This document shows positions 4,929 to 60,478 of a stretch of 64,000 nucleotides of DNA, piece after piece. Every line of letters begins with the position of its first letter. Positions within the stretch are counted from its first letter, which is position 1. The stretch lies in NCBI RefSeq assembly GCF_004361835.1, contig NZ_SNWD01000001.1, positions 1 through 64,000 of the forward strand. The letters run 5' to 3'. The DNA comes from Stakelama pacifica (GTDB taxonomy: Bacteria; Pseudomonadota; Alphaproteobacteria; Sphingomonadales; Sphingomonadaceae). Both the position numbers and the translations under genes were made by a program. Below the pieces are notes generated by a model. It ran no database searches and was not told the DNA's origin. It saw nothing but the letters and a program-made list of their open reading frames with translations.

Positions 4929-5465
4929 ATGAAAAATAAGCGCAATATATTTGGCGCTGCTGCAGTTGTGGTTGGCTTTTGTACCATCGGCTCTGCAGAG
5001 GCCGTAGCGCAGACTCCTTGCAACCCGTCGTCCATGGCATTGATGGTTCAGCATTTCCAAAGCGGTAGTGCCTATCTGCCGGCTTTTGCATGGCCTGTTC
5101 GACAGCTTATTCTGCAGCAGACCGGAGGGACCACGTATTATCCCCAGCTTGCCGCGCTTGGGCCGTTGCAGAATGTGAGCGTTATAGGCGCGCAGCAGCT
5201 TCCCAATGGCATCGTATGTGGTTTTGCAACGCAATTCGCCAATGTGAACCTTTTCTGGCAGGTGGCATATGGTGCCGACGGACTTATCTATGGTCTGAAC
5301 TACACGCCCGCTCCCGCTCCCTCGGTTCCGCGCAGTGGCAGTCCCGCGCCGGTGCCGTCTGCCGGACCGACAGGCGGCACGACACCCAGTCTTCCAACCC
5401 CCGGAACCTCCCCGGTTCCCCAGGGGCAGGAAGAGGGTTGCGACCTATATCCTAATCTATGCTGA
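4929..5465 (+). CDS. Small secreted protein with proline-rich tail (DUF3887-like)
   Basis: An exported protein of 178 aa with a clear Sec signal (KNKRN start, hydrophobic core, cleavage near AEAVAQ-T). The mature part has one compact domain whose end (PNGIVCGFATQFANVNLFWQ, then GADGLIYGLNYTPAP) resembles the DUF3887/NTF2-like fold found in exported bacterial proteins. A low-complexity Pro/Ser/Gly linker of about 40 residues follows, with a final cysteine-containing tail (EEGCDLYPNLC). Starts at 4908, 4923 and 4929 are possible. The last has the best G-rich ribosome site and begins the signal peptide with Lys. The stop overlaps the next gene by 7 bases, so the two are translationally coupled and probably work together outside the cytoplasm. 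The function is unknown. Confidence 0.7.
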   Translation: MKNKRNIFGAAAVVVGFCTIGSAEAVAQTPCNPSSMALMVQHFQSGSAYLPAFAWPVRQLILQQTGGTTYYPQLAALGPLQNVSVIGAQQLPNGIVCGFATQFANVNLFWQVAYGADGLIYGLNYTPAPAPSVPRSGSPAPVPSAGPTGGTTPSLPTPGTSPVPQGQEEGCDLYPNLC

Positions 5466-6253
5466 CCGGGGGCGTGACATCGCGCCGGTCGCTGTTCGGC
5501 ATTGCAGGCGGGGTTGTTGCCTGTTCGCTGTGCGGCATGGGACCGGTCAAGGCGCAGACCAACCAAGCCCGGAGCGTGTCGGGCGGATGCTGGATGGCAA
5601 AGGAAGAAGCCGCGCCGCTTCTTTCCGCTGCGCAGGACGTAATTTCCTATGCCAGCGGTAATGAGCCGATTGTGCTGAAATCGGGCAACGCGGTGTTTGA
5701 TCGCAGCCTTGCCAAATCGCTCGCGCGAATGACCGCGCTGTTCGGCGTATTGCCAGGTTTCGCGTATTTCGATGAGCCGATGGGCGAAGGCAGCAATGCA
5801 TATGCGACCTCCGCCGTGCGACTTGATCGCGACGATGGAACGGTGTTGTTCGGCACGCGTATGCTCAAAGGTCTCTTGGGACGCCCCACCGCGCCCGATG
5901 CCGCCGTTCTGGCGGTCTGTGCACATGAATATGGCCATATCGTGCAATATCGTCGCGGGCTTTCCGCACGATTAAACGCCGGTCAGTCGACGGTCAAACG
6001 GCAGGAATTGCATGCCGATTATCTTGCCGGCTATTTTGCAGCCGTGCGCAAGATAGAGAATGCGAATTTCTCCTCGGTCACCTTCGCAACAACCATGTAT
6101 GACTTAGGCGATACAGCCTTTCACTCCCGTAATCATCACGGTACTCATGATGAGCGCGCCGCCGCAGTGATGGCGGGATTTAGCGCTCGAAAGGAGCGGG
6201 GGCTGACTGTAGATCAGGCGATCGCCGATGGGCTTAATTATGTAGGCGCGTAA
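5459..6253 (+). CDS. Exported zinc metalloprotease-like protein (HExxH)
   Basis: A 264-aa protein with a twin-arginine-type leader (TSRRSLFGIAGG) and a zincin active site: HEYGHIVQ gives the HExxH helix, and ELHADYLAGYFAA about 30 residues later supplies the third ligand, in the manner of the YpfJ/neutral zinc metallopeptidase group. A second His-rich loop (FHSRNHHGTHDERAAA) follows. It is coupled to the preceding secreted protein through a 7-base overlap, and both carry export signals, so it may process or be guarded by that partner. The natural substrate is unknown. Metalloprotease fold is well supported, but activity has not been shown. Confidence 0.78.
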   Translation: MLTGGVTSRRSLFGIAGGVVACSLCGMGPVKAQTNQARSVSGGCWMAKEEAAPLLSAAQDVISYASGNEPIVLKSGNAVFDRSLAKSLARMTALFGVLPGFAYFDEPMGEGSNAYATSAVRLDRDDGTVLFGTRMLKGLLGRPTAPDAAVLAVCAHEYGHIVQYRRGLSARLNAGQSTVKRQELHADYLAGYFAAVRKIENANFSSVTFATTMYDLGDTAFHSRNHHGTHDERAAAVMAGFSARKERGLTVDQAIADGLNYVGA

Positions 6254-8030: not shown

Positions 8031-8156
8031 GTCATATCTCCCGCATATCGGGGGCTGATGTGCCCGCCGGTTGCTGTGTTGGGGGCGATATAGGCCGGGC
8101 GGGGAGGCGCGATCAGGGGTCCAAATGGAAATGCAGCGTTCGCGAATGCGCGCCGG

Positions 8157-9449
8157 TCAGGCGGCGAGCGGTAACCGGATGCGCCGGGGGCGGCGGAGGA
8201 AATGGAGCGCGGAGAGGATCGTGAACAGCGCGACGATCAGCGCGGTCGCTTCGCTGCACAGGGTGAAAAAATGCAGCCAGCGCATATCGGGCGCTTCGAA
8301 ATGGCGGATCAGCAGCAGCGCGACGCTGCCCATATAGCCCGATGCATCGGCGATGTAGATCAGGAATCCGGCATTGGCGGCAGTGCCGATCGCCGCGATC
8401 ATGCGGTCGAACAGCATTGCGTTGAACGGCGTATAGGCAAGATAGAGGCCCGTGCCGGTGAGGGTCATCCACGCGATCGGCCCGATCAGCCCGGCATGAA
8501 AGGCAAGCGTCGACAGGCCGAGCAGCAGCGCGCCCGACAGGATCATGCCGTGCATCGCCAGCAGCGCGCGGCGATTGTCGCGCACCAGCATCAGCAAGGC
8601 GAGCGCGGCGAGGACGAGCAGCGCGACCGGTATCTCGCTTGCCGAAAACATCGCCGGTTCGCCGCCATGGCCAAGCGACGCCCATAGCTCCGCCGCGAAA
8701 TTGTCGCGGACATCGCGCAGCGCGGTGAGGAGGACATAGCCGGTGATGAGGAGCAGCAGCGTGGCGCCGTGCGCGCGCAGGAACGCCGCGCGATCGGCCG
8801 CCCGCATCGGCACGCGCGCGACCCGCTCCGCCTCGTCGCGGGCATCGGGCGGGGGGAGGCGCTCGAGCTGCCAAAGCGAGACGAGCAGCAGCGGCGTAAA
8901 GGCAAGGCCCGTCGCAGCGGGCATCCAGAATTCGGGCACCCCCGCCTGCAGCAGCAGCGCGGCGGCGGACTTCACCACGCCTGAGGACAGGATGAAGCTG
9001 GCGCAGAGCATCGAACCCAGCAATTCGGTCGCGCGCCGCCCCTCAATATAGCTGAACACCAGCCCCCAGATCAGCCCGAGCGGCAGCCCGTTGAGGAACA
9101 GGCACGCAATGTTCCACGGCGGGGGCACGAGGGGGAAGAGCAGCAGCGCGAGCCAGGACGCAAGGATCAGCGACAGGATCATCCGCGCGCGATGGCTGCG
9201 CCCGACCTCCGCAATGACGCGAACGCCGATCAGTTTGGACAGCGCATAGCCGATGACCTGAGCGATCAGCAGCGCGCTTTTATAGTCGAGCGCGAACGGC
9301 CAGCCGACGATATCGGCATAGGTCGCCGCAGCAAAGGCTTTGCGAAAGGCGTACATCGCGAAATAGGCGCCGAACGCGGCCAGCCCGCCCAGAAACAGGG
9401 TGAGGCCGGACGCCGATGCCCGCCTTCGCGCCGTATCGCCGCCGATCAT
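8157..9449 (-). CDS. DUF5690 family MFS-like membrane transporter
   Basis: A 430-aa polytopic membrane protein. The opening helix with YFAMYAFRKAFAAATY is characteristic of DUF5690, a branch of the major facilitator superfamily. Around twelve hydrophobic segments can be traced in two halves joined by a charged cytoplasmic loop (LERLPPPDARDEAERVARVP). The substrate is unknown. The open frame begins at GTG 9467. ATG at 9449 has GGGGAA just upstream and avoids a charged extension, so it is preferred, but both are possible. The gene is monocistronic and divergent from the PadR unit. Confidence 0.78.
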   Translation of the reverse strand: MIGGDTARRRASASGLTLFLGGLAAFGAYFAMYAFRKAFAAATYADIVGWPFALDYKSALLIAQVIGYALSKLIGVRVIAEVGRSHRARMILSLILASWLALLLFPLVPPPWNIACLFLNGLPLGLIWGLVFSYIEGRRATELLGSMLCASFILSSGVVKSAAALLLQAGVPEFWMPAATGLAFTPLLLVSLWQLERLPPPDARDEAERVARVPMRAADRAAFLRAHGATLLLLITGYVLLTALRDVRDNFAAELWASLGHGGEPAMFSASEIPVALLVLAALALLMLVRDNRRALLAMHGMILSGALLLGLSTLAFHAGLIGPIAWMTLTGTGLYLAYTPFNAMLFDRMIAAIGTAANAGFLIYIADASGYMGSVALLLIRHFEAPDMRWLHFFTLCSEATALIVALFTILSALHFLRRPRRIRLPLAA

Positions 9450-9581
9450 CCCGATTCCCCGAACCACGCCGGGGCCTTGTGCGCGATGCGCGCGACGAAT
9501 TGATGACAGGGGGGCTTAGCAACCGTCTTGACGAGCGGCATTCCTGAAGACGGTTTTCGGTGCCGACGCGGTTTCCGCCGC

Positions 9582-9616
9582 TTGACTCTTAAATCTACAT
9601 ATGTTGAAAATAAGAA
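9582..9616 (+). promoter_or_regulatory. Putative promoter/operator of the padR unit
   Basis: A short AT-rich segment with TTGACT at 9582-9587 and a palindromic ACATATGT at 9597-9604 lies immediately before the PadR start. PadR-type regulators commonly repress their own promoter through sites containing ACAT and ATGT half-sites. The -10 element is not clear. Confidence 0.35.
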
Positions 9617-9913
9617 ATGATGCGACAGCGGCGCCCCTCCAGACAAATGATTGCGCTTCTTCATTCGCTTGCCGATCGCCAATGGCACCATGGCTATGAT
9701 CTTATGAAGGATACGGGACTGCTGTCGGGCACGTTGTATCCGCTGCTGATACGGATGAGCGAACAGGATCTGGTCGAGGCGGAATGGCGCGAACCCGCCA
9801 TGACCGGCCGGCCGGCGCGGCACGCTTATCGTCTTACGCAAAAGGGAATGGCACTGGTTCAGGACCTTGCGCGCAACGATCCTGCACTATCGGGAAAGGC
9901 CGTTCGGATATGA
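9617..9913 (+). CDS. PadR family transcriptional regulator
   Basis: A 98-aa winged-helix regulator of the PadR family. The recognition-helix region (HGYDLMKDTGLLSGTLYPLLIRMSEQ) and the wing (YRLTQKGMALVQDL) match the family closely. It lacks the long C-terminal dimerisation helix of larger PadR proteins, as in the short PadR-s2 subgroup. ATG 9617 or 9620 are equivalent choices. Its stop overlaps the start of the membrane protein that follows (ATGA at 9910-9913), so the two are coupled and the regulator probably controls this operon. Confidence 0.88.
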   Translation: MMRQRRPSRQMIALLHSLADRQWHHGYDLMKDTGLLSGTLYPLLIRMSEQDLVEAEWREPAMTGRPARHAYRLTQKGMALVQDLARNDPALSGKAVRI

Positions 9914-10527
9914 AGCTTCTGCTTTCCCGCGCATTGATGACGCTCGCATGCCGGTGTCTGGGAGAAGGACGGCGAGAATGGGCGCAGGCGATGCTGGCCG
10001 AGTTCGATGCTGCGGTCGATGACGGCCGCCCGCTGACCTTCGCCGCCGGATGTCTGGCCGGGGCGCTTTGCCAGATGCCGGTTCGGGATGAAGGCCGGTT
10101 CATCCTGACGAGCTACGCGCTGGCGCTGATGATAATGGTACCGATCGCAGCGGTTGAAATCAGCTCTGCGGCGCTGGGAATACCTCATCTGTTGGGCGGG
10201 CAGGCGAACATCGGCGCGACCTATGCGCAAAAGCTGTTGATGGGCGAAGCCATTCGGGCGGCAGGGCCGTCGCTCGCCCTTTTGCTGCTATTGTCCGGCA
10301 TCGTGCAGATGCGTCTGGCATGGCTGACGCTTGAACGTGACTGGGTGCGCGCCGCCGCAACGGGCACTGCCGTACTTGCCGCGATCACTACCATGATACT
10401 CGTTCTGGGCTGCCTGTTTCTCGATATCGGACAGGCCGTCACGCTTGGCGGAGCGCTCGGGATCGAACTTGCGCTGATCGCCGGACTCAGAAGCTGGCAC
10501 GCTGATCTTAACCTGCCGCCTTATTAG
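9910..10527 (+). CDS. Integral membrane protein coupled to PadR
   Basis: A 205-aa protein with a short amphipathic cytoplasmic N-terminal region (GEGRREWAQAMLAEFDA) and four hydrophobic segments. Short membrane proteins of this layout are common beside PadR regulators in proteobacteria, but I do not recognise a named family. The reading frame is open further upstream, inside padR, but the start is set by the ATGA overlap at 9910. The membrane protein is probably the effector controlled by the regulator, for example an envelope-stress response. That is inference from operon layout only. Confidence 0.7.
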   Translation: MKLLLSRALMTLACRCLGEGRREWAQAMLAEFDAAVDDGRPLTFAAGCLAGALCQMPVRDEGRFILTSYALALMIMVPIAAVEISSAALGIPHLLGGQANIGATYAQKLLMGEAIRAAGPSLALLLLLSGIVQMRLAWLTLERDWVRAAATGTAVLAAITTMILVLGCLFLDIGQAVTLGGALGIELALIAGLRSWHADLNLPPY

Positions 10528-10597
10528 CGAAACGTGCGACTGTCGCGCGCTTCCCCGATTTATCGTCGCCTCAATGTCCTTGCCGGAGACCCGAACG

Positions 10598-12118
10598 ATG
10601 CAAAACGCACGAATGATCCTCTGTGCCCTGTCGCTTAGCGTCGTCGCCTGCGGCCCAGCACTTGCACAGACCGGGCCGGCGCGGTGCGTTGCGCCTTCCC
10701 TCACCGACGGCGGCCCCGTCAATTCGCATACCCGCAATGTCGAGACGAACCTGCGCCCGCCCGTCATCCGGCCCGGCGACCAGCCACGCACGCTGGCCGA
10801 GGCGATGCGCCGATACGACGTGCCGGGGATCAGCGTCGCGGTGATTCATGACGGCAGGATCGCCTGGGCACGGGGCTGGGGAGTTCGCGATCTCACCAGT
10901 TGCGCGCCGGTCACGCCCGATACTGCGTTTCAGGCGGCGTCGATCAGCAAAATAGTGACCGCGACGGTCGCATTGCGGCTGGTCGAACGGGGTACAATCG
11001 GCCTTGACCGGAATATCAACAGGTCGCTTCATTCCTGGCGGTTGCCGGAGGATGCGAAGCTGGCCCCCGATGGCGTGACGCTTCGCGAGCTGCTGAGTCA
11101 TACGGCAGGGCTGAGCGTGCACGGCTTCGATCACTGCTACCCGCCGGGTGCGCCGCTGCCCACGACAGTACAGACTTTGGACGGCATGCCGCCAGCCGCC
11201 AATCCGCCGGTCCGGAGCATCTTACCCGCAGGCGCGCAGTTCGAATATTCCGGCGGCGGCTATATGGTAACGCAGCTTGCGCTGTCCGATGTGACCGGCG
11301 TCCCGTTCGCCCAGCTTGCGCAAACTGAGATGCTGGGCCCGCTTCACATGACACGCAGCGGATTTGCCATGCCGCTCTCCCTGGCGATCCGCAGCGACAT
11401 GGCATTCGGTTCTGCGCACGGAAAAGCGATGCCCGGAAATTATTGCGTCTTTCCCCAGCTTGCGGCGGCAGGGTTGTGGGCGAGCGCAAGCGATCTGGCG
11501 CGGTTGCTCATCGATCTTCAGGCTTCCGCCGCAGGCAAGACAGGGCACCGCCTCTCGCCCGGGATGACGCATGCGATGATGACACCGGTCAAGGATAATT
11601 GGGGGCTTGGCGTCGCGCTTTACAGGGACGGCACCCCCCGCTTCGGCCATGACGGCGTCAATCCGGGATTCGAATCGTTCATGGAAGCCTATAGGGATAG
11701 AGGCGACGGCATCGTCGTGCTGACCAATGGCGGCGATGGCCGCCGATTGATCAACGAAGTCGTCCGCGCCGTTGCGAGCGATTATGGCTGGCCCGACATG
11801 GTTGTGCCGGCAAGTAAGGAAAAGCCGCTGTCGCTTGCTCAGCTTTCCAAAGCTGCGGGGCATTTCGAAGGCAGCGGGCTGAACATTGTGCTCGAAGCTC
11901 GTTCGGAAGGATTATTCGCACGGTTCGCCGGTGCTCCCGCCGCCACGTCCGAACGGCTGATCCCGCTCTCGCCACGGCGTTTTCGGTCCGAAGCCCTCGG
12001 CATCACCGTCGAATTCTCTCCTGATTTTGCGAGCTTCACCTTCATCGACGGCGCTCCGCCGATGAAGGTGCTTCGCGTCAATGGTGCGCCGCCTGTGGCG
12101 AAATCAAACGGATCCTAA
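10598..12118 (+). CDS. Periplasmic serine hydrolase, class C beta-lactamase family
   Basis: A 506-aa exported hydrolase of the beta-lactamase/D-alanyl-D-alanine carboxypeptidase fold (PF00144). A signal peptide ends near ALAQ-T. The SxxK motif is at S115-I-S-K118, the second element is YSGGGY in place of the canonical YxN, and the third is FGHDGVNPGF, equivalent to HxG/KTG. A C-terminal extension of about 100 residues (from roughly KPLSLAQLSKAAGHFEG) resembles the lipocalin-like tail of class C esterase homologues. Such proteins are usually esterases, amidases or D-peptidases rather than true beta-lactamases. ATG at 10598 is chosen over an upstream in-frame ATG at 10574 because GGAGA lies before it and it begins the signal peptide. 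The gene is 70 bases from the PadR-linked membrane gene and may be co-transcribed. Confidence 0.82.
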   Translation: MQNARMILCALSLSVVACGPALAQTGPARCVAPSLTDGGPVNSHTRNVETNLRPPVIRPGDQPRTLAEAMRRYDVPGISVAVIHDGRIAWARGWGVRDLTSCAPVTPDTAFQAASISKIVTATVALRLVERGTIGLDRNINRSLHSWRLPEDAKLAPDGVTLRELLSHTAGLSVHGFDHCYPPGAPLPTTVQTLDGMPPAANPPVRSILPAGAQFEYSGGGYMVTQLALSDVTGVPFAQLAQTEMLGPLHMTRSGFAMPLSLAIRSDMAFGSAHGKAMPGNYCVFPQLAAAGLWASASDLARLLIDLQASAAGKTGHRLSPGMTHAMMTPVKDNWGLGVALYRDGTPRFGHDGVNPGFESFMEAYRDRGDGIVVLTNGGDGRRLINEVVRAVASDYGWPDMVVPASKEKPLSLAQLSKAAGHFEGSGLNIVLEARSEGLFARFAGAPAATSERLIPLSPRRFRSEALGITVEFSPDFASFTFIDGAPPMKVLRVNGAPPVAKSNGS

Positions 12119-49996: not shown

Positions 49997-50264
49997 GCTG
50001 ACGGAGGAGGAGAGGCGGGGCTGGCGCCTGCCCGAGGCACGGCCCGCGTCGATCGACATGTGTGTGGAGGCCGAGCCGGAATCGAATTAATAGATATTTA
50101 TCATTTAGTATCAGGCGGTTGATTGATTGTATCGAGCGCAAAGGCCCCCAAAAAGGCCCCAGTAATTTCAGCCTGCGATTTCACTCGGGCCGCAAAGGGA
50201 GATGACCTTCCTTTTTCACCACTTGTTCTGTCGGTAAAACAAGCGAACACGGCGATAGGACATC
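49997..50264. other. Junction between chromosome-like genes and the mobile element
   Basis: No gene. AT-rich part at 50085-50130 and the repeated word AAGGCCCC (50141-50163) precede the 3' end of hsdR. The gene style changes here from the chemotaxis operon to mobile-element genes, so a left element end is likely in this stretch. I cannot identify the attachment site without the other end. Confidence 0.4.
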
Positions 50265-53258
50265 TTACGGCGCATGAACGTCGCGGACTTGTCGAAGTGC
50301 TCGATTGAAAAAGTGGCGTGTGGCCTTGTCCCGCGCCTCTGCGTCCGTCAACACGATGTTGCGCATCTCATTATCGCGCTGGAACATGCGGACCGCGCCT
50401 TGGAAGAACGCTTGGGCGAAGGCAGTGTAAACAACGTCCGGCGGGTTGTTGCGCAACATCTCCGCAAGGTTGTCGCCCAAAATCTCTTCGTTTACCTGCT
50501 CGAAACGGATCATGTCGCCTTCGGAGAATTGCGTTCCGTGACGTTCGTTGAACGCGTTGACGATCTCGGACAACTCCTTCTGCTCGTCCTCAGTGTAGGG
50601 CTTAGCCCCAAACTCGCTGATTGCTTTGAGCGCCGCCCTGTCGCCAGCGGCGAGCGAGGCGTCACCCTGCTCCTTCTGCTCGACCTTAAACTTTTGTAGC
50701 CGGAGCATGTCGTCGGTGATTTCAATTTCGGGTGGAATCTGCCGGTTGGGAAGGAGGCGCGCGAGCCATGTGACGTATGAATAGAGCTTTTCCAAGCCCG
50801 TATCCTCCAGCTTCATCACCTGCGCTATGAAGCTGTAGAAACGCATGTAGCTGCGCAGAAGTTGGCGGAACTCCTCCTGCCGCCCCTCATCTTCATCAAA
50901 TTCAAACCGGGCGACGGCCTGACGGACAAGCCCTTCGAGCCGTGCGCGGTCCCCGCCGTCGAGCTGCCCCTTATAATAGGTCGCTGCGAACCGCTCGATT
51001 TCCTCCTTGTCGAGATAGGTGAATTTGAACAACCGTCCTTCAAGATCGTAAACGAGATTGGGGTCGGAGTTGGCTTCGAGCGCCGACACTTCGAAATATG
51101 GGCGAAAGGCATCCCGTATGTCCTCGATGGTATTTTGGAAGTCGAGGATGTAAGTCTGGTCTTTGCCGGGCCGGGTGCGGTTCAGACGCGACAGGGTTTG
51201 AACCGCCTGTAGGCCCGCCAGCTTGCGATCCACATACATGGCACAAAGCTTGGGCTGGTCGAAGCCAGTCTGGTATTTCTCGGCGACGATCAGGATTTGA
51301 TACTGCTCGGGATAGGGTGTGCCGTCCGGCTTGAAACCGTCGAAGCGGCCCGGCAGCTCGGTTTCAGCAAAGCCCGTCAGGTCGGCTTCGGTGTAGGTTT
51401 GACCATCGAAGGTAAGTTCGCCCGAGAAAGCGACCAGCGCACGAAGATCGGCATAGCCCTGCGCCTTGATGTAGTCGCGCACGCCGAAAAAGTAGCGCAG
51501 CGCATGATCGCGGCTCCCGGTGACGATCATTGCCTTGGCCTGTCCGTCCAGCATCTTGGCGACATGGCGGCGGAAATGCTCGACAATGATCTCGACCTTC
51601 TGACCGATGGCAGTGGGATGTAGATTGGCATAGCGCGCAACCCGGCGCTGGCCGCGCCGCCCGCTTAGCTGCGGGTCATCCTCGATGGCCTTTTCGAGCT
51701 CGTAATAGGCTTTGTAGGTCATGTAATTCTGGAGAACGTCCAGAATGAAACCCTCCTCGATGGCTTGGCGCATCGAATAGAGATGGAATGGGTGCGGGAG
51801 TCCGTCAGGGCCTTTGGTGCCGAAGCGTTCCAGCGTGACATTACGCGGGGTCGCGGTGAACGCGAAGAAGCTGATGTTCGCCTGCGGACCGCGCGCCTTC
51901 TGATAGGCAGCGATAATGTCTTCGATGTCGTCGCTGGAGTCCCCCTCGCGCGTGAGCGCGTCGGTCATGGCTTGGGCTGATTTGCCGGACTGGCTGCTGT
52001 GTGCTTCGTCCACGATGACGGCGAAGGTGCGATCGCCCTGACCGGAAATCTCTTTCAGGTGCTCGGTCGAAAATTTCTGGATCGTTGTGACGATGATGCG
52101 CGCGCCTTTGGCGATGGCCTGCTTAAGCTGCTTCGATGTGCCCTCGATTTTGCGCACGACGCCCTGCGTCTGCTCGAACTGCGAGACGGTGCTTTGAAGC
52201 TGGCGGTCCAGCACGATACGGTCGGTAACGATGATCGCGGTGTTGAATACCGCCTTGTCATCCATGTCATGAAGGTTGATCGCGTGATGCGCGAGCCAGC
52301 CGATGGTGTTGGATTTGCCTGAGCCTGCGGAGTGCTGGATCAGGTAGTTGCGTCCCGCGCCGAACTGGCCCGCGTGCGCCATGAGCCTGCGCACGGCGTC
52401 AAGCTGCTGGAAGCGCGGAAAGATCAAGGCTTCCGTCCTGCCGCTGGTGTCGAGGTGGATGAAACGCCCTATGATGTCGAGTAGCACGGCGCGGGAGAAT
52501 ATCGCCGCACCCCATTCACCAAAACTGTAGAGATAGGCGACCCGGAACTCATCCTCAATGTCGGGATTTCCGGCCCCGCCATCGCGGCCCCGGTTGAAGG
52601 GCAGGAAGCGGGTGCGGCCATTTTGCAGCCGCGTGGTCATGGATACGTTGTCCTCGTCCAGCGCGAAATGGACCAACGCCCCGCGCTTGAAGGTCAGCAA
52701 CGGTTCGCCCGCTGGCGAGCGATCCTGCCGGTATTGCTTTTCGGCATGACGGAAATTGGAGCCGGTGAGGAGGTTCTTTGCCTCCATCGTGGCGACGGGC
52801 AGTCCGTTGAGGAAAAGCGCAACGTCCAGCCGCCCGCCGTGCCGCTCGCTGTATTCGACCTCCTTCATCACCGAGAGGATATTAGCCTCGTATTCGGCGA
52901 CGCGCTTAGGTTCCAATCCGCTGGCGGGGCGGAAGTAGCAGAGCGCAAACGTGATGCCGGGGACAATCTTGATCCCCTGCCGCAGCACGTCCAGCAGTCC
53001 GCGATCTTTCAGGGATTTTTCGAGCTGTTTGAAAAACGTGTCCTCCGCCGCTGTGGTGTAATGCCCTTCCAGCTTGGTCCATTCTCCGGGCTGGGTGCTT
53101 TGGATGAAGCGCAGGACCAAAGCCCTATCCATCGCCAGCGCCCGGTCATAGTTGGCCTTGGCATCGCGCAATTCATAGCCCCCACCCGCGATAAGCCGCG
53201 TAATCAGGTGATCCTGCACTACCTGTTCCTTGTGGGCGTTATGGGCGGCGGTACTCAT
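50265..53258 (-). CDS. hsdR: Type I restriction enzyme R subunit
   Basis: A 997-aa type I restriction subunit. The N-terminal nuclease domain has the PD-(D/E)xK type motif around LFLNGLPVATMEAKNLLTG. SF2 motor motifs follow: Walker A HSAGSGKSNTIGW, DEAH box VDEAHSSQSGKS, TATP motif FTATPRNVTL and late motif AEKYQTGFDQPKL. It cleaves DNA after translocation when its site is unmethylated, using the M and S subunits encoded upstream on the same strand. Its start overlaps the stop of a TIR-like gene by four bases. The length and motif set are intact. Confidence 0.93.
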   Translation of the reverse strand: MSTAAHNAHKEQVVQDHLITRLIAGGGYELRDAKANYDRALAMDRALVLRFIQSTQPGEWTKLEGHYTTAAEDTFFKQLEKSLKDRGLLDVLRQGIKIVPGITFALCYFRPASGLEPKRVAEYEANILSVMKEVEYSERHGGRLDVALFLNGLPVATMEAKNLLTGSNFRHAEKQYRQDRSPAGEPLLTFKRGALVHFALDEDNVSMTTRLQNGRTRFLPFNRGRDGGAGNPDIEDEFRVAYLYSFGEWGAAIFSRAVLLDIIGRFIHLDTSGRTEALIFPRFQQLDAVRRLMAHAGQFGAGRNYLIQHSAGSGKSNTIGWLAHHAINLHDMDDKAVFNTAIIVTDRIVLDRQLQSTVSQFEQTQGVVRKIEGTSKQLKQAIAKGARIIVTTIQKFSTEHLKEISGQGDRTFAVIVDEAHSSQSGKSAQAMTDALTREGDSSDDIEDIIAAYQKARGPQANISFFAFTATPRNVTLERFGTKGPDGLPHPFHLYSMRQAIEEGFILDVLQNYMTYKAYYELEKAIEDDPQLSGRRGQRRVARYANLHPTAIGQKVEIIVEHFRRHVAKMLDGQAKAMIVTGSRDHALRYFFGVRDYIKAQGYADLRALVAFSGELTFDGQTYTEADLTGFAETELPGRFDGFKPDGTPYPEQYQILIVAEKYQTGFDQPKLCAMYVDRKLAGLQAVQTLSRLNRTRPGKDQTYILDFQNTIEDIRDAFRPYFEVSALEANSDPNLVYDLEGRLFKFTYLDKEEIERFAATYYKGQLDGGDRARLEGLVRQAVARFEFDEDEGRQEEFRQLLRSYMRFYSFIAQVMKLEDTGLEKLYSYVTWLARLLPNRQIPPEIEITDDMLRLQKFKVEQKEQGDASLAAGDRAALKAISEFGAKPYTEDEQKELSEIVNAFNERHGTQFSEGDMIRFEQVNEEILGDNLAEMLRNNPPDVVYTAFAQAFFQGAVRMFQRDNEMRNIVLTDAEARDKATRHFFNRALRQVRDVHAP

Positions 53259-53977
53259 GCTGATGCCCCTGCAATGCTTCTAGGGTCAATATTGAACCCG
53301 GAACCTTGGAGTCGCTGTGCCAGCTTCGGAACAATCTCGCGAACGTGATCATTGAACTCGATGTAGAGTATGCCCGCCGCGTCAGACGGCATTTCAAGTG
53401 CGCCCTTTTTAAGAATCACCATTTTGTCGCGCCCTAGCGCGGCCATCACCATTCCCATTTCGAGTATGACGTTCTGACGGGCGCGGGCCTGCTTTTCGGT
53501 TTCCCCGGCCACCTTGGAATAGCCGAAGTCATCGGGCGTAAGGAGGATAATGCCGAAGGCGGCCTCGCGATAAATGTTCTTCTCCAACGCTTCGATGACG
53601 GTTTTGCTCTCACCATCGGAATTTTGCAGAATGAAAGGTTGCAGACCGAGCCGCATGAGTACCAGTTCCAACTGGTCCCGTGCGTCACGGTCGTGACCAT
53701 GCACTAGAAATATTTTGGCACTTGCCGCGACAGCTACAGCACTTGGGGTCATGCTCCCATTTCCGTTTAGTGCTGCTTGTAGAGATATCCGAAAGGCATC
53801 CTGATTTTGGCCCTGAAACTGGATCGTGCCTTTGCTCGGCCACCAATTCAAGATTTCGCCGGTGCGTCCCCGGAAAGAATGGTTATTCGCCTTAGCATTA
53901 TCAGTCCAAGCCCCTACCAATCCGCATGAATCGATCGCAGTTTTTAGCTCATCGATACTCCCATGAAACTTGTTCAT
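53255..53977 (-). CDS. TIR-like nucleotide-binding protein inside the hsd operon
   Basis: A 240-aa protein with two parts. Residues 1-75 contain a small domain with FRGRTGEILNWWPSKGTIQF, of a kind often fused to this TIR type. Residues 88-230 form the PF10137-like TIR domain: KIFLVHGHDRDARDQLELVL, VIEALEKN, GIILLTPDDFGY, and RQNVILEMGMVMAALGRDKM, where E173 is at the usual catalytic glutamate position. TIR proteins of this class hydrolyse NAD or bind nucleotides in anti-phage defence. It overlaps hsdS and hsdR by four bases on each side, so it is made together with the restriction enzyme. A suicide or back-up defence role is inferred. Confidence 0.82.
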   Translation of the reverse strand: MNKFHGSIDELKTAIDSCGLVGAWTDNAKANNHSFRGRTGEILNWWPSKGTIQFQGQNQDAFRISLQAALNGNGSMTPSAVAVAASAKIFLVHGHDRDARDQLELVLMRLGLQPFILQNSDGESKTVIEALEKNIYREAAFGIILLTPDDFGYSKVAGETEKQARARQNVILEMGMVMAALGRDKMVILKKGALEMPSDAAGILYIEFNDHVREIVPKLAQRLQGSGFNIDPRSIAGASA

Positions 53978-55233
53978 GCCTGAATGACCTCCCCTATTTT
54001 ATCCAATCGGCGCTGTGTTTCACCGAGCCTACCCCAGGTCGCCACGTCGATCTGGCCGGTTAAGGCGGCAGTGATGAGAGCGGCGCGGAACTCTCCCAGT
54101 CGCGCAATCGACTGTTCTGTTTTCCCTTTCAATCGTCGCTCGAAATCAACTGCTTGCTCAACAGCCTTCTGCAACGCTGATCCGGGGACGGGGATTTTTT
54201 CTTTTCCAAGGCGGCGCACGTTGAGGGGCCTGTTGCGACCCGCCGAACCTCTCGATGCCTCGTTGAGAAGGAAATCACCGTAGCTGCTCCGCAAGAGCCC
54301 AAGCAAATAGGAGGTGTTAACCCCGGACTTGCCCCGATAGACAGGATAACGGTGCGAAACGACGCAGCCTTCTTCATCGGCGGTGGCGAGAGCGACTGCA
54401 CCCTCCCATGCGAACTGACCGCTAAGGATAAGATCGCCAGCCTCGACGAAGAAGAACTCGGAATCACCCATGCCTTCTTCGTCGGCGGCGGGCTTTCTGA
54501 AAATACCGCGCCCCCGGTTGTAGAGGCCAAGCCGAACCAACTCATCGTGCTCGGACAACGTGACAGGGCGTGAAACGCGCTGCGTCAGGTGTTCAAATCG
54601 TGTGCGTGGCACATTGGCGTCTGCAATCGCTTGGTCAACAAGCGCCTCTATCCGACGTGCTACGCCCGTCACAAAGAGACGTTTTTTCTCGATCAATTGT
54701 TCAATGCGGGCAGTTTCGCGGTCAAGGAAATCAGCGATGAGCAGTTGAATATCGATAGAAGGCAGCCAAAGCTCTGTTGAGAGAAATTCTCGGGGATTTA
54801 GCCGTAGAAACCCCGTTCCCATCCCTTTTGATCGGCAATGAAACTCGGCTGCGTATAGAGTCGTCCTACATAAGTATTCTATAAAACGCGGAACAACTTG
54901 GTCCGAAAATTCGTAAACAGCATAGTCAGGACTGGTAATACCGTTGTAGGGTGATATGCCAAACATGCCGTTCCATGCTTGCATCTTGTTCGAGATGAGC
55001 TGACCTTCTCGGACGTGTTTGTATCCGACATAAGAGGACGCTTCTGACGCTCGTTGTCCCATATCGGATCGCCGAAGCACACCCCGACTTCCAGAAAGTC
55101 CTAAAACTTCTTCGTCCCCGGTTTCTGAACGGGCATCAATTTCACGCAAGAAGTGCTTCGCACGGACACGAGGCCAATCAAGGCTCTGGTTTCGCCCATA
55201 ATAATCTTCGATCAAGAAGCCGGTGTTGCTCAC
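53974..55233 (-). CDS. hsdS: Type I restriction-modification specificity subunit S
   Basis: A 419-aa specificity subunit with two target-recognition domains (about 15-180 and 205-375) separated by conserved helical spacers (PSIDIQLLIADFLDRETARI at about 165-185; a second after ALQKAVEQAVDFERRL). The two halves read as related repeats, as is typical. It determines the bipartite DNA site recognised by the M2S and R2M2S complexes. The base composition is visibly lower in GC than its neighbours, common for hsdS. ATGA overlaps with hsdM and the TIR gene. Confidence 0.9.
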   Translation of the reverse strand: MSNTGFLIEDYYGRNQSLDWPRVRAKHFLREIDARSETGDEEVLGLSGSRGVLRRSDMGQRASEASSYVGYKHVREGQLISNKMQAWNGMFGISPYNGITSPDYAVYEFSDQVVPRFIEYLCRTTLYAAEFHCRSKGMGTGFLRLNPREFLSTELWLPSIDIQLLIADFLDRETARIEQLIEKKRLFVTGVARRIEALVDQAIADANVPRTRFEHLTQRVSRPVTLSEHDELVRLGLYNRGRGIFRKPAADEEGMGDSEFFFVEAGDLILSGQFAWEGAVALATADEEGCVVSHRYPVYRGKSGVNTSYLLGLLRSSYGDFLLNEASRGSAGRNRPLNVRRLGKEKIPVPGSALQKAVEQAVDFERRLKGKTEQSIARLGEFRAALITAALTGQIDVATWGRLGETQRRLDKIGEVIQA

Positions 55234-57248
55234 GCCGCCACCTCTCGCAGCAGCCCCGCAATTTCCGCTTCCAGCGCCTTTAGCTCTGCGTCGATCTCAT
55301 CCAGCGGACGCGGCGGGGTATAGCGGTAGAAATAGCGGTTGAAGTTGATCTCGTAGCCGACACGACCAATTTCGCGGTCGCGGGCGTCGCGGTAAGATTC
55401 GTCCACCCAAGCATCGGGAGCAAAGGGCGTCACCTCGCGCGCAATATACTCGCGCCAGTCCTCCTTGAGCGGCACAAGTTCGTGGTCACGCAGGTCGGTA
55501 TCCGGCTCAGGGTTGCCGTCCTTGTCGGTGCAAATGTCGGCGTCCTCGTCGCGCTCGGAAAGGCCCGAAAGGACCGCCTTCCTGACTGGCCCCGCGATCT
55601 TCACGCCCTCGACCTTGAACGCCTTGGCCAAAGCCTTGTTGAAGGCATCGCGGTTGGTGAAGAGCGTATCGCCCATCCCCAGCAAAACGACTTCGATCTC
55701 TTCCTGCTCGTCCTCGGGCAGGCGCGCAAACACTTTCTCGTCGGCAAGGCGGGCGATCCGTTCCCGACTGGCCTGAAAATTCAGGCGCAACGGGCGTTCG
55801 ACGCGGACTTCGCGATGGCCGAAGTCCGCAACGTCGAAGATTTTGGCAACGTCGCCTTCGCCGCGACCGCCGTTCAGGAGGCCTCCGTAGATGCGCACGA
55901 TGTCGGCGCGGGCTTCTTCGGGAATCTCCCGGCGCTTGGAGCCAAGCGATTTCCGCATGGACTTCCAAAACCGTTCGCTGCTAGCGTCGATCAACTGCAC
56001 CTTGCCCCGGCGATCGGCGGGCTTGCGGTTGGTCAGCAGCCACACATAGGTTTGGATGCCAGTGTTGTAAAACAGGTCTGTAGGCAGAGCGACAATCGCC
56101 TCCACCCAATCGTTCTCGAACATCCAGCGGCGGATTTCGCTTTCGCCGGACCCGGCCCCGCCCGTGAACAGCGGCGAGCCGTTCATGACGATGCCGATGC
56201 GCGAGCCGATTTCATCGTCGCGCATTTTCGAGATCATGTGTTGGAGGAAGAGAAGCTGGCCATCGGAAATGCGCGGCGTGCCCGCCCCGAAACGGCCGTC
56301 GAAGCCCAAGGTGTCGGCTTCGCCCTTGATCGCGTCCTGATACTTTTTCCAGTCCACGCCGTAGGGCGGGTTCGATAGCATGTAGTGGAATTTCTTGTCC
56401 TTATGGGCATCCTGCGTGAGAGTGTTGCCGAAGGCGATCTGTTCGGGATCGTGGCCCGTCACGAGCATGTCGGATTTGCAGATACCGAAGGATTCCCCGT
56501 TCAATTCCTGTCCGAACAATTCGACGCGGATTGAGGGGTTAAACTCCTGCAAGGCGGCTTCGGTGAGGGCGAGCATACCGCCCGTGCCGCAGGCCGGATC
56601 ATAGACCTGCCGGATGATGCCGCGTCCGGTCAGCTTGGTATCGTCGTTGGCGATCAGCAATTCCACGATCAGGCGGATCACCTCGCGCGGGGTGAAGTGT
56701 TCGCCCGCTGTCTCGTTGGAGATTTCCGAGAAGCGGCGGATCAGCTCCTCGAAGAGATAGCCCATCTCGATATTGCTGACCGTATCGGGATGCAGGTCGA
56801 TCTCGGTGAAACGCTCAAAGACGTTCCAAAGGATGCCCCCTTCCTTGAGACGCTTAAGCTGGTCGGTGAACAGAAATTTGTCGAGAAAGATGTCGCGGAC
56901 GTTGGCCGAAAACTTGGTGATGTAATCGACCAAATTGGCGTGAAGCTGGCCGGGGTCTTGGCCCTGGAGGGTGGTCAGCGTGAAGCGGGACAGGTTGTAA
57001 ACTTTCACGTTCCCGCCCACCGCGCTGAACAAAATCATATCGCGGGTGGCGTCGTCCACGCCCTCGGGAACCGAATTGGCGGCTTCAAGAACGGCAGCTT
57101 TGGTCGACTCAAGGATGCAGTCGAGTCGGCGCAATACGACAAAAGGCAAAATAACCTTGCCGTATTCAGACTGTTTGAAGTCGCCGCGTAAAATCTCGGC
57201 AATTGACCACACAAACCCGCCAAGGTTGCGAACTTCTTCTCGTTGCAT
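55230..57248 (-). CDS. hsdM: Type I restriction-modification DNA methyltransferase M subunit
   Basis: A 672-aa N6-adenine methyltransferase. An N-terminal helical domain (GGFVWSIAEILRGDFKQSEY, then LPFVVLRRLDCIL) is followed by the motif I DPACGTGGML and the catalytic motif IV SNPPYGVDW. A C-terminal extension from about residue 500 ends in a helical region (DEIDAELKALEAEIAGLLRE) that contacts HsdS. First gene of the hsdM-hsdS-tir-hsdR operon. The start ATG 57248 overlaps no gene, and the promoter must lie in the 79 bases before it, after the HigA-like gene. Confidence 0.93.
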   Translation of the reverse strand: MQREEVRNLGGFVWSIAEILRGDFKQSEYGKVILPFVVLRRLDCILESTKAAVLEAANSVPEGVDDATRDMILFSAVGGNVKVYNLSRFTLTTLQGQDPGQLHANLVDYITKFSANVRDIFLDKFLFTDQLKRLKEGGILWNVFERFTEIDLHPDTVSNIEMGYLFEELIRRFSEISNETAGEHFTPREVIRLIVELLIANDDTKLTGRGIIRQVYDPACGTGGMLALTEAALQEFNPSIRVELFGQELNGESFGICKSDMLVTGHDPEQIAFGNTLTQDAHKDKKFHYMLSNPPYGVDWKKYQDAIKGEADTLGFDGRFGAGTPRISDGQLLFLQHMISKMRDDEIGSRIGIVMNGSPLFTGGAGSGESEIRRWMFENDWVEAIVALPTDLFYNTGIQTYVWLLTNRKPADRRGKVQLIDASSERFWKSMRKSLGSKRREIPEEARADIVRIYGGLLNGGRGEGDVAKIFDVADFGHREVRVERPLRLNFQASRERIARLADEKVFARLPEDEQEEIEVVLLGMGDTLFTNRDAFNKALAKAFKVEGVKIAGPVRKAVLSGLSERDEDADICTDKDGNPEPDTDLRDHELVPLKEDWREYIAREVTPFAPDAWVDESYRDARDREIGRVGYEINFNRYFYRYTPPRPLDEIDAELKALEAEIAGLLREVAA

Positions 57249-57327
57249 CAGTTAATATCCCGCCGGTATCGAATGTATAAATGTGACCTCTGCTTCACCC
57301 GATCTGGGTGGCTTAGGCCAATTTCTG

Positions 57328-57645
57328 TTAGTCGTCTCGTAGTTTGCCTTTGAAAGGAAAAACCTTAATTTCCGCTTCCCGTTTGCGAGTTTGCGCAATG
57401 TCGTAGCTGCTTTGCATCTGCATGAGGGTATCCATCGACACGCCGAATCCCTTCTCGATACGCAGCGCCATTTCAGGCGACAGGTTCGCGCGCTCATTGA
57501 GCAACGTTGAAAGCGTCGCGCGCGTAATGCCCAGCACGGCCGCTGCCGCTGTAACCGACAAGCCCAGCGGCTCTATGATCTCATGCTTGATGAAACCGCC
57601 GGGGTGAGCCGGATTTTTCAAGCGAATATCTGCAATCGCGATCAT
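57328..57645 (-). CDS. higA: HigA/VapI-type helix-turn-helix protein, without a toxin partner
   Basis: A 105-aa HTH regulator of the HigA family. The conserved N-terminal PAHPGGFIKHEIIEPLGLSV precedes the HTH (AAAAVLGITRATLSTLLNER), then LSPEMALRIEKGFGVSMDTL. The start is ATG 57645 (AGGGGGG upstream); the longer open frame is a shadow of the relaxase. HigB normally lies immediately upstream, but only 70 bases separate this gene from the relaxase stop and no RelE-like frame is present. It may have been kept as a regulator of the restriction operon just downstream, a common role for small HTH proteins beside hsd or mod genes. Confidence 0.85.
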   Translation of the reverse strand: MIAIADIRLKNPAHPGGFIKHEIIEPLGLSVTAAAAVLGITRATLSTLLNERANLSPEMALRIEKGFGVSMDTLMQMQSSYDIAQTRKREAEIKVFPFKGKLRDD

Positions 57646-57715
57646 AGTTACCCCCCTGCATCGTGCGCCGTTGGGCGACGCTATACAGTTGTCGGCGAGC
57701 GGATAAACCCCATCT

Positions 57716-60478
57716 TTATCCCAACCCCGCGCCAAAATCCTTGCGGGCGGCTGGGTTGGGCGCGGCGTGCTGCACAAGCGCGGTCTGCTTCTCGCCGGTT
57801 CGCTCGGCAATCGCGCCCTCCAGTCTGGCGCGGTCGTTCGTGAACAACGTTACGAACGCCTTGGCGCGGGACAGTTTGGTGTAGAAGCTCTTCTGATCGA
57901 CGAGATTGGTGGCCGCGCTGTCCGCGTGAACGATGATATGATCGACCGTGCGGCCTTGGGCGGTGAAGGTGGTGGACACGTAAGCATGGGCGATGTGCCG
58001 GTCACGGGCAGCGTCAAGATCGAGCGTCTGGACCTTGCCGCGCTCGGTGCGCACCGTCGCGGTGCGGTTCTGTGCGTCGAGCGCTATTACCGCACCGAGC
58101 GTGCCATTGTTCCGTCCGGCCTCGCGGTCATTGCGCGTGAACCGGATGGCATCGCCGGTTTTGAGGTCCATCGCCTGCGGGGCGAACGCCTGCACATGGC
58201 TCGCACCCCATTGGCGCAGACGCCAGTCCACTTCGCGACCATCTTCCGATCTGAGCATGATCGCCGCCTTGGCCGCATCGATGGATTCAACCGTATAGGC
58301 TTCGCCGCGCATCACCCCCTTATGCTGATAGTCTCGGAAGAACCGGATCACATCACCTTTATTGTAGGACATGGGGTCATGCGCATCGGCACGAGTTAGC
58401 CCCTTGCTGTCGAGACGCTGAATGGGAACCGCAGGCCCGGTGATCGCACCTGCTTCGCTCAGGGCTTCGCGTATGTCCGCAATGAGCCTGTCACGCCCCT
58501 CGCGGGAGGGCTCGACTACTAGTGTACGGGCACGCGCCACCTCGTCCATCGCGGTATAGCGCGTGGCCATCATGGCGAACCGTGCTGCCCGCTCTTCATG
58601 CTCGATGACTGTGCCCCCGCCCCGGTCGAGCGCGGCCAGTGCCTTTTGGGCGTCTCCTTGGATAGACGCCAGCACAGCCTCCTTTGTTGCCTCGTTGGTC
58701 TGTCGGACAATCTCGGTCAGCTTCGCCGTCTCCATGCCCGCCTGCTGTAGCTGCTCGAACGCCGCACCAGCTGCGACCGATCCAAGCTGCTGCACGTCAC
58801 CCACCAGCACGATGCGGGCGTGATGCTTTTCAGCCAGGTCGAACAGTTGCGCCGTGTCCTGTGCCGAGAGCAAGGACGCCTCGTCCACGATCCATAGGAC
58901 GGGCCGCGTCGGGTCGGGTCGCTCGGGCAGGCGCAGGTGACGCGCGACCGTATCGGAGCGCGTCTCCAGCGCCTCTCCGAGCACCATCGCCGCTGATGAT
59001 GTGGGAGCCAAGGCGACGACCGACAGGCCTTTCGCCCCGGCCTCGCGGGCGAAGGTAGCCAGAACCGTTGTGGTTTTGGCCGTCCCTGCAAAACCTTGGA
59101 TAGCCGTGATGCGGTTGCGGCTGGTCAAAAGCTGCGTGGTGGCCTCCCGCTGCTCGACATTCCACGCGAACCCGGCCCGCTCGGCCTGCATGGCGGCGCT
59201 GCCGACCGCCTTGGCGGCTTCAAGCGGTGAAGCAATGGGCGCACACGCGCCGCGTCCTTGCGCCTCGACGCGCAACAGGGTGGTTTCGGTTTCGACATTA
59301 CGGCGCGTGGTGAACCCGTCGAACTTTGCGCCGCGCCGATCAAGAAAGGTCCGGTCGATCAATGCCCCGCCTCGCGTTTCCTCCGCGATAGCGCTGGCGA
59401 TCTGCGCATGGCTAGCCTTACCAAGACTGAACCGGCCGGCCTCCGCTTGCAGGGCAGCGTGCGAGAAGACCGATTGCCGTTCGCCAAGATGTGCGCTGGC
59501 CTGTGCGATGGCCCGGAAAGCGGCCTGATGGCCCTGCCGCGCAAGGGCGGCGAGATAGGCCGGATCGGCTGCCTTGGCCTCGGCCGCTGCGACGATCGCC
59601 AGACGCTCGGACGCCCGGAACCCGGCATCGCTCGCCGTCTCGCGCCAGTCGGCGACAAGCGCGCCCTGATCTACGAAAAATTTAGTCTCGCGCGTGTCGA
59701 GCGCGATAACCTGCTTCTGAGCAGCGCTGGCCGTATCGCGGGAAGCGCCGCGCTCTGCCAAGGCCGCTTCGATCTGCGCGCTGCGGGTGCTAAATGCCTC
59801 AAGCACCTCGGCGGGCACGCCTGCAATCTCGAACATCGAGCCTTTGGCCGTCTCGATCTGATAGCCAAGCTCGCGCACCTTCACGCTTAGTTCCTGCCGG
59901 TAGATTGAACCGATCTGCTTCTGAAGCTGGTAGATCGCTCTCGGTTCAAGGCTGCGCCATTCGCCATCGGCGCTTTGGGTCGCGTTCATCACCACATTAT
60001 GCGTGTGCAATTGCGGGTCCTGAGCTCGGCTGGTCCCATGTTGAAAGCTGGCGATCACCAGATTGCCGGTGGACTCGCGGGCAACGCTTCCGCCGTCCCG
60101 GATACGGGTGGCGGCCATGTGACGTTCGACATGAGCCATGGCGATGCTGACCGCTTCGTCATGGGCGGCGATCAAACGCCGGTCGCCTGCCACCTCGGCC
60201 ATGATCGACACGGATTTAGGCGCGCTCAGCGTCACGTCCCAGCCGGGGCGATGTTCCAATTCGCCGCCGCGCATGGTGCCAAGCATCTGATTGCCGATCT
60301 TCCCGTCCAGCGCCTCGCGGAAGCGCTCCCGGTCCACTTCGCCGGACAGGCCTAGCGCCTGTGCACCTTGGCCCCGCCATTGCGATGGGGCGAGCCCGTC
60401 TTCCGAATAATAGTCATCGGCCTCGTAATAGCTCGCGGCCTGTGCGGCGCTGGTCAGCGCGGAAACGGACGCGACCAT
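57716..60478 (-). CDS. MobF (TrwC/TraI) conjugative relaxase-helicase
   Basis: A 920-aa relaxase that nicks oriT, stays bound to the 5' end and unwinds the strand for transfer. N-terminal tyrosines Y17/Y18 and Y23/Y24 (ASYYEADDYYSEDG) are the nicking candidates, and the three-histidine metal site is HGTSRAQDPQLHTHNVVM. Then come the helicase domain with Walker A IQGFAGTAKTTT, Walker B WIVDEAS, and late motifs RHIAHAYVSTTFTAQGRTVD and YTKLSRAKAFVTLFT. The length is close to TrwC (966 aa). ATG 60478 overlaps the traD stop by one base. The longer upstream frame is a shadow. Together with TraD it makes the element mobilizable, but no type IV secretion genes are visible in the window. Confidence 0.92.
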   Translation of the reverse strand: MVASVSALTSAAQAASYYEADDYYSEDGLAPSQWRGQGAQALGLSGEVDRERFREALDGKIGNQMLGTMRGGELEHRPGWDVTLSAPKSVSIMAEVAGDRRLIAAHDEAVSIAMAHVERHMAATRIRDGGSVARESTGNLVIASFQHGTSRAQDPQLHTHNVVMNATQSADGEWRSLEPRAIYQLQKQIGSIYRQELSVKVRELGYQIETAKGSMFEIAGVPAEVLEAFSTRSAQIEAALAERGASRDTASAAQKQVIALDTRETKFFVDQGALVADWRETASDAGFRASERLAIVAAAEAKAADPAYLAALARQGHQAAFRAIAQASAHLGERQSVFSHAALQAEAGRFSLGKASHAQIASAIAEETRGGALIDRTFLDRRGAKFDGFTTRRNVETETTLLRVEAQGRGACAPIASPLEAAKAVGSAAMQAERAGFAWNVEQREATTQLLTSRNRITAIQGFAGTAKTTTVLATFAREAGAKGLSVVALAPTSSAAMVLGEALETRSDTVARHLRLPERPDPTRPVLWIVDEASLLSAQDTAQLFDLAEKHHARIVLVGDVQQLGSVAAGAAFEQLQQAGMETAKLTEIVRQTNEATKEAVLASIQGDAQKALAALDRGGGTVIEHEERAARFAMMATRYTAMDEVARARTLVVEPSREGRDRLIADIREALSEAGAITGPAVPIQRLDSKGLTRADAHDPMSYNKGDVIRFFRDYQHKGVMRGEAYTVESIDAAKAAIMLRSEDGREVDWRLRQWGASHVQAFAPQAMDLKTGDAIRFTRNDREAGRNNGTLGAVIALDAQNRTATVRTERGKVQTLDLDAARDRHIAHAYVSTTFTAQGRTVDHIIVHADSAATNLVDQKSFYTKLSRAKAFVTLFTNDRARLEGAIAERTGEKQTALVQHAAPNPAARKDFGAGLG

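Follow-up and report, generated by a model that had tools for sequence, protein, structure and literature searches.

Toxic effectors housed within type I restriction-modification operons have precedents. PrrC sits inside the EcoprrI locus (PMC12707154, PMC3710099), and DarTG2 (in the RRDM island) as well as another gene pair are reported to lie between hsdS and hsdR, at what the authors suggest is a recombination hotspot (PMC12255303). Genes embedded in this manner have also been gathered by "guilt-by-embedding" as phage defence candidates (PDC), which the accessible parts of the sources present as unvalidated at the time of writing (PMC12988326, PMC10855318). Here we describe a comparable arrangement in Stakelama pacifica (NCBI RefSeq assembly GCF_004361835.1), on positions 1 to 64,000 of contig NZ_SNWD01000001.1 (the window, meaning the whole 64,000-nucleotide stretch analyzed), where a gene for a TIR-domain protein, tir, lies between hsdS and hsdR. 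We see about an even chance that tir, a PDC-S35 family gene, encodes an abortive-infection effector that works autonomously as a single gene and travels as exchangeable hsdS-hsdR cargo in an operon that itself resides on an element integrated at a tRNA-Cys gene. The four genes and the two parts of the TIR protein are placed as follows.

55230..57248, minus strand: hsdM, type I DNA methyltransferase subunit, 672 aa (Pfam N6_Mtase E 1.5e-55, HsdM_N 6e-22; PADLOC MTase_I E 1.1e-270)
53974..55233, minus strand: hsdS, specificity subunit, 419 aa, with a GTG start on the hsdM stop (PADLOC Specificity_I E 1.2e-87; Methylase_S E 4e-5)
53255..53977, minus strand: tir, PDC-S35 family, 240 aa (PADLOC PDLC05003 over residues 1-239, E 5.7e-99; PF10137)
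53762..53977, minus strand: TIR protein, N-terminal domain (residues 1 to about 72), modeled as a helix, four strands, and a helix, and predicted to be TBP-like of the RNase HIII N-domain type (model; 4py5 match)
53351..53716, minus strand: TIR domain, residues 88-209, with R167, N169, E173, and D199 (PF10137; SfSTING 7un8 Z 15.6; residue mapping)
50265..53258, minus strand: hsdR, type I restriction subunit, 997 aa (HSDR_N, SWI2_SNF2, T1R_D3-like)

Pfam and PADLOC are in accord on the identity of all four genes, and HsdM, HsdS, and HsdR are encoded in a single operon, as in a type I restriction-modification system. HsdM and HsdR look intact by the motifs readable in their translations, which we take to be NPPY in HsdM and Walker A and DEAH in HsdR, along with a D...ExK stretch. 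Neighboring genes share 4 bases at every joint in the open reading frame (ORF) list and the joint sequences, and the order hsdM-hsdS-tir-hsdR with overlaps throughout, as originally predicted, is borne out by ORF coordinates and gene families. The same prediction had all three joints reading ATGA, which holds for hsdS/tir and tir/hsdR but not for hsdM/hsdS, which reads GTGA because the start codon of hsdS is GTG.

The tir product matches the PDC-S35 profile (PDLC05003, PADLOC-DB 2.0.0) over 1-239 of its 240 residues and is embedded in a defense operon; a description of an N-terminal domain was not found for PDC-S35. The Pfam TIR family PF10137 covers residues 88-209 (E 1.2e-33, 116 bits versus a curated cut-off of 24.7). 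Residues R167, N169, E173, and D199 align with SfSTING R78, N80, E84, and D110, given 8 extra residues in the construct, an offset in SfSTING numbering that was deduced from the residue ranges of the structure matches. In the accessible text on SfSTING, E84 is catalytic, R78 and N80 lie in the pocket, and D110 comes from the opposite TIR of the dimer (PMC9402430). All four residues are identical across the 23 aligned homologues, and the expected glutamate at the catalytic position (E173) is upheld by this conservation and by the mapping to E84. The closest structures to the TIR model are SfSTING 7un8 (Z 15.6, 2.3 A, 129 residues), followed by the SPARTA TIR-APAZ 8qlp (Z 14.5, 2.8 A, 140 residues). 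These residues give good support to a predicted NADase step. Elsewhere in the same genome, another stretch resembles PF10137 weakly (G000:C4:23490-23705, 23.8 bits versus the cut-off of 24.7).

With its domain above the curated cut-off and its catalytic glutamate, the protein qualifies as a CAP12/Pycsar-type TIR (PF10137), and it shares the TIR family and active-site residues with CBASS Cap12/TIR-STING and Pycsar PycTIR. It differs from both in that the Pfam scan detected no STING domain, no cyclase gene adjoins it, and the sensor-like part is N-terminal. Membership of CBASS Cap12 was rejected on the missing STING domain and on a Cap12 equivalog score of 33 bits versus a cut-off of 450; the adjoining genes are the hsd genes, with no CD-NTase among them in a search confined to the locus.

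To place the position of tir in context, we compared what fills the hsdS-hsdR gap elsewhere. HsdR has a match at E <= 1e-80 in 60 of 396 genomes of the phylum, the window's own counted. Among the 64 matches listed outside the window, the loci of 43 were fetched (all but G900 and the 20 lowest), and 38 were kept, including TIR loci L071 to L073, after omitting 5 of the 43 in which hsdS was not identifiable. Of these 38, 29 (all three TIR loci among them) have at least one same-strand ORF of at least 100 aa between hsdS and hsdR; gap ORFs were called mechanically, and some of these cargo ORFs may be false. Pfam matches at E <= 0.01 were obtained for 18 of the 20 gap proteins scanned, and the families include SLFN_AlbA_2 (L146, L168, and L073), GmrSD (L145), Fic (L147), macro (L160), DUF4357 with or without GIY-YIG (L148, L164, and L170), AAA with subtilase (L141), HNH with an integron-cassette protein (L137), HepT (L071), and FRG (L072 and L073). 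A PADLOC scan covering ten gap proteins, three of them TIRs, called the ATPases of L140 and L144 PtuA. Overlaps of 4 bases with gap cargo occur on the hsdS side in 13 of the 29 loci, on the hsdR side in 4, and on both sides in 3. The original prediction took the overlaps as a mark of a tight link between TIR and restriction enzyme, whose production would be in a constant proportion, a view undercut by their presence with other cargo, at every joint in the case of the PtuA locus L140. Because most gaps are filled, many by unrelated defense families, and overlaps are common with other cargo, we conclude that exchangeable defense genes generally use the space between hsdS and hsdR as a cargo site. 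The four nearest HsdR relatives of the window (L134 to L137, 65-70% identity) have no TIR. L134 has a 147-bp hsdS-hsdR gap, L136 has no same-strand ORF of 100 aa in its gap, L137 holds the HNH pair, and L135 encodes a 176-aa protein (5117-5647) with neither a Pfam nor a PADLOC match, possibly a defense cargo of unknown type.

The order hsdS-tir-hsdR with a full-length tir was found at six loci, the window included, by tblastn with the Hsd proteins of the window. Three of the others (L071, L072, and L073) belong to three genomes from three other families of the phylum, and two (L174 and L175) are the hsd-borne cases among 65 IMG/VR loci. With five further loci, the placement is more than chance. 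A survey for the same insertion had been set beforehand as a test, and it returned this recurrence with conserved site residues rather than a single case with a degraded site. On a 46-row HsdR tree, built by a quick method with SH-aLRT support only, a long-branch warning, and one truncated row (L138), the TIR label takes 4 changes, and starred branches force every one of them, with gain and loss not distinguishable. On a 24-row TIR tree, the six hsd-borne copies do not form one clade and their label takes 3 changes, at least 2 of them forced; constraining the six copies into one clade costs 110.7 log-likelihood units (p-AU 5.85e-6). At L073, the TIR, an FRG-domain protein, and an SLFN_AlbA protein are stacked in one slot (8043-11902), and tblastn found no hsdM within the stretch examined.

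The TIR family also lives outside hsd operons. Full-length relatives with no hsd neighbors were found at L003, L004, L005, L006, L070, L099, and L100, where absence of hsd rests, as for all TIR copies here, on tblastn with the window Hsd proteins within the available flanks. Identity to the window TIR is 64% for L003, 59% for L004, and 66% for L070, and by path length on the TIR tree these three are closer to the window TIR than is any hsd-borne copy. The L099 copy lies on a Paludisphaera plasmid, and the L100 copy lies in an Escherichia coli phage, adjoining a gene annotated as DNA polymerase. In L070, the full-length TIR (8926-9633) stands between pheS and pheT (TIGR00468 and TIGR00472, both over cut-off), and the TIR gene therefore also embeds in a housekeeping operon. 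Of the 65 IMG/VR loci, 63 showed no hsd gene around the TIR, although in some the match is limited to the TIR domain or the flanks are short, and several of the twelve IMG/VR contigs listed gene by gene resemble phages or prophages. In L100, L177, L178, L192, and L194, the TIR gene follows a DNA-polymerase-like gene and precedes a helicase-like gene; L178 alone was scanned, with matches below cut-off, and the others are alike by eye.

By this distribution, the TIR protein is apparently independent of hsd, which supports its autonomy as an effector. Embedding in an operon alone does not prove functional wiring, as the hsdS-hsdR gap swaps unrelated defense genes. The inference of a special wiring is weakened because the slot is in general use and because the TIR family lives outside hsd operons. 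The special tie to the restriction enzyme that had been read from the position of tir was not supported, with the gap filled mostly by other families, the nearest HsdR relatives without TIR, and the nearest TIR relatives outside hsd operons.

Under this reading of tir as autonomous cargo, the N-terminal domain (NTD) would bind an infection-specific ligand, most likely a nucleic acid (an RNA/DNA hybrid, for example). Ligand binding would gather the TIR domains, such that D199 of one could complete the E173 site of its neighbor, and the resulting splitting of NAD+ would stop the growth of the infected cell. In this scheme, the restriction enzyme would act first, and the TIR protein would back it up independently while relying on the operon for its expression. 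The analysis shows the gene order, the conserved site residues, the recurrence, the use of the slot for cargo, and the presence of the family outside hsd operons, whereas NADase activity, self-assembly, the ligand, and phage protection are what we infer for the TIR protein.

The predicted small N-terminal domain is confirmed at about residues 1-72, and modeled alone (AlphaFold2, 22 sequences) it reaches a mean pLDDT of 90.2, with a helix at 8-17, four strands, and a helix at 59-74. VIA-align, which re-ranks Foldseek candidates, placed at the top RNase H3 with an RNA/DNA hybrid (4py5; Z 8.6, 70 residues, 2.4 A), followed by RNase H3 3vn5 (Z 8.1, 69 residues, 2.6 A) and RnlA 6y2s (Z 8.1, 73 residues, 3.0 A). 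Position 46 is aromatic in all 23 rows (Y in 11, W in 7, F in 5), and G56 is kept in 22 of 23. A weak alignment between the NTD of the relative L214 and 4py5 (E 0.52, outscored by ribosomal protein L6 at E 0.21) puts these two positions on RNase H3 Tyr43 and Gly52, given a deduced one-residue shift in numbering. Both of these RNase H3 residues contact the hybrid, according to the accessible text of the structural report (PMC4132731). In relative L069, an rnhC match was recorded (E 0.0017, 17.8 bits versus a cut-off of 161). The same NTD is fused ahead of an anti-phage dCTP deaminase (NF041025, 488 bits, cut-off 400) in L102 (478-2247; MT838710, an unannotated human-gut phage scaffold). With the NTD as a tblastn query, one record was returned among plasmids and one among phages. 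By its model, the NTD may have the fold of the RNase HIII N-domain (DUF3378) and of the TBP-like domain of RnlA/LsoA, and in the weak alignment it has a conserved aromatic and glycine at hybrid-contact positions; it differs in being joined to a TIR domain or a dCTP deaminase rather than an RNase. The match in fold to the RNase H3 TBP-like domain is modest, and together with the occurrence of the same NTD before an anti-phage dCTP deaminase it suggests a nucleic-acid sensor, with the hybrid as the specific ligand only moderately supported. An 87-aa ORF in L096 (9294-9557) resembles the NTD alone, with no effector.

We tentatively consider a broader version of this scheme, in which a hybrid-binding domain of RNase HIII type gates the TIR NADase, making it a single-protein innate sensor of RNA/DNA hybrids, such as phage replication or transcription intermediates. 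Its sensor module would be common to the anti-phage dCTP deaminase and, by fold, to RnlA-type toxins, and the protein would have entered type I operons more than once. This is possible, though less than probable in our judgment. If the NTD does bind RNA/DNA hybrids, a trigger would be found for a TIR family, and what single-gene TIR effectors sense would become testable with one small domain.

Several results weigh against these interpretations. In VIA-align, unrelated folds come close behind, 1.1 to 1.4 Z lower (AMPK adenylate sensor 7.5, BamC 7.2), and Foldseek alone returned nothing for the NTD model at E <= 0.001, with polo-box domains on top at low probability. The NTD profile gave weak matches against the PDB, the best being an unrelated hypothetical protein at E 0.1, with RNase HIII 3vn5 at E 0.64. 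Neither DUF3378 nor rnhC was matched by the window protein in Pfam and NCBIfam, and of the 10 relatives scanned three matched DUF3378, each below the curated cut-off (L214, collinear over 5-60, E 0.027, 15.1 bits versus 27; L215, E 0.046; L069, E 0.084). The net charge of the NTD is near neutral, from -3 to +3 across 22 rows. As for the effector itself, the name PDC-S35 was not found in the literature searched, and the PDC class is called unvalidated in the accessible text of its sources (PMC12988326, PMC10855318). Insertion into the same slot, with at least four label changes, could also reflect a functional tie to restriction. Neither the gene order nor a TBP-like domain on a PF10137 TIR was described in the literature searched; the preprint introducing the embedding approach (doi 10.1101/2024.01.29.577857), outside that literature, may well describe the arrangement.

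The near-neutral charge and the proximity of AMPK adenylate-sensor folds (Z 7.5 versus 8.6) would also fit an autonomous TIR effector whose NTD binds no nucleic acid and instead detects a nucleotide or a phage protein, or serves only for oligomerization. Other TIR systems sense proteins, for example capsids, according to the accessible text of one report (PMC12578639). We regard this alternative as rather unlikely, as the top three VIA-align entries are two RNase H3 structures and RnlA, and relatives show weak rnhC and DUF3378 matches along with the conserved aromatic and glycine.

It is also possible that the TIR protein senses restriction failure. In a guard of the PrrC kind, the HsdMSR complex would silence the TIR protein, which would fire once a phage protein blocks restriction. 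Embedded partners are known from the precedents cited above, PrrC in EcoprrI and DarTG2 between hsdS and hsdR, and the operon in the window resembles both in housing a toxic effector within a type I operon, and the RRDM island also in its position. Such a guard would fit the six loci and an HsdR tree on which the TIR label changes at least four times, and the gene overlaps suggest translational coupling. The operon differs from both precedents in effector chemistry, and its TIR family is not confined to hsd operons (a criterion of our own, not part of the definition of PrrC): full-length relatives without an hsd neighbor by tblastn exist, and the closest TIR relatives are among them. The slot moreover accepts unrelated genes, and the Pfam scan showed no PrrC-like ATPase or HEPN domain. 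Taken with the distribution of the family, we judge such a guard unlikely, and favor the autonomous effector.

An integrated element of about 16.3 kb, bounded by a 16-bp repeat and extending past the window from contig position 50071 to 66390, carries the hsd-tir operon as distal cargo. The parts of this element include a tyrosine integrase (contig 64906-66183), presumably P4-like, which adjoins tRNA-Cys (66317-66390), as well as a TrwC relaxase and a TrwB coupling protein. That tir is a passive or decaying hitch-hiker on this element, with no defense role, would agree with its carriage there and with its low GC content (0.521, compared with 0.536 for hsdS, 0.589 for hsdR, and 0.650 for the relaxase), but is very improbable given an open frame, the conservation of the four site residues in all 23 rows despite deep divergence, and an embedding not of single origin. 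Two further features belong to this setting.

50071..50086, strand not assigned: left end repeat of the element, 16 bp, with its partner at contig 66324-66339 within tRNA-Cys, beyond the window
57328..57645, minus strand: HigA-family regulator, 79 bp upstream of hsdM (TIGR02607 94 bits, cut-off 47.7)

Pattern scans for expression signals were uninformative, both for a promoter of tir itself (3 promoter-like sites in 50000-58000 versus 3.1 in shuffles) and for a Shine-Dalgarno-like pattern in L014 (2 matches versus 2.8 expected). The ATG start of the HigA-family gene at 57645 was read from the ORF, and the profile scan used 57328-57681. Between this gene and the relaxase stop (57716) there is no space for higB, and the HigA-family protein is possibly a regulator of the operon. 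By way of comparison only, RptR occupies a similar place in the E. coli island.

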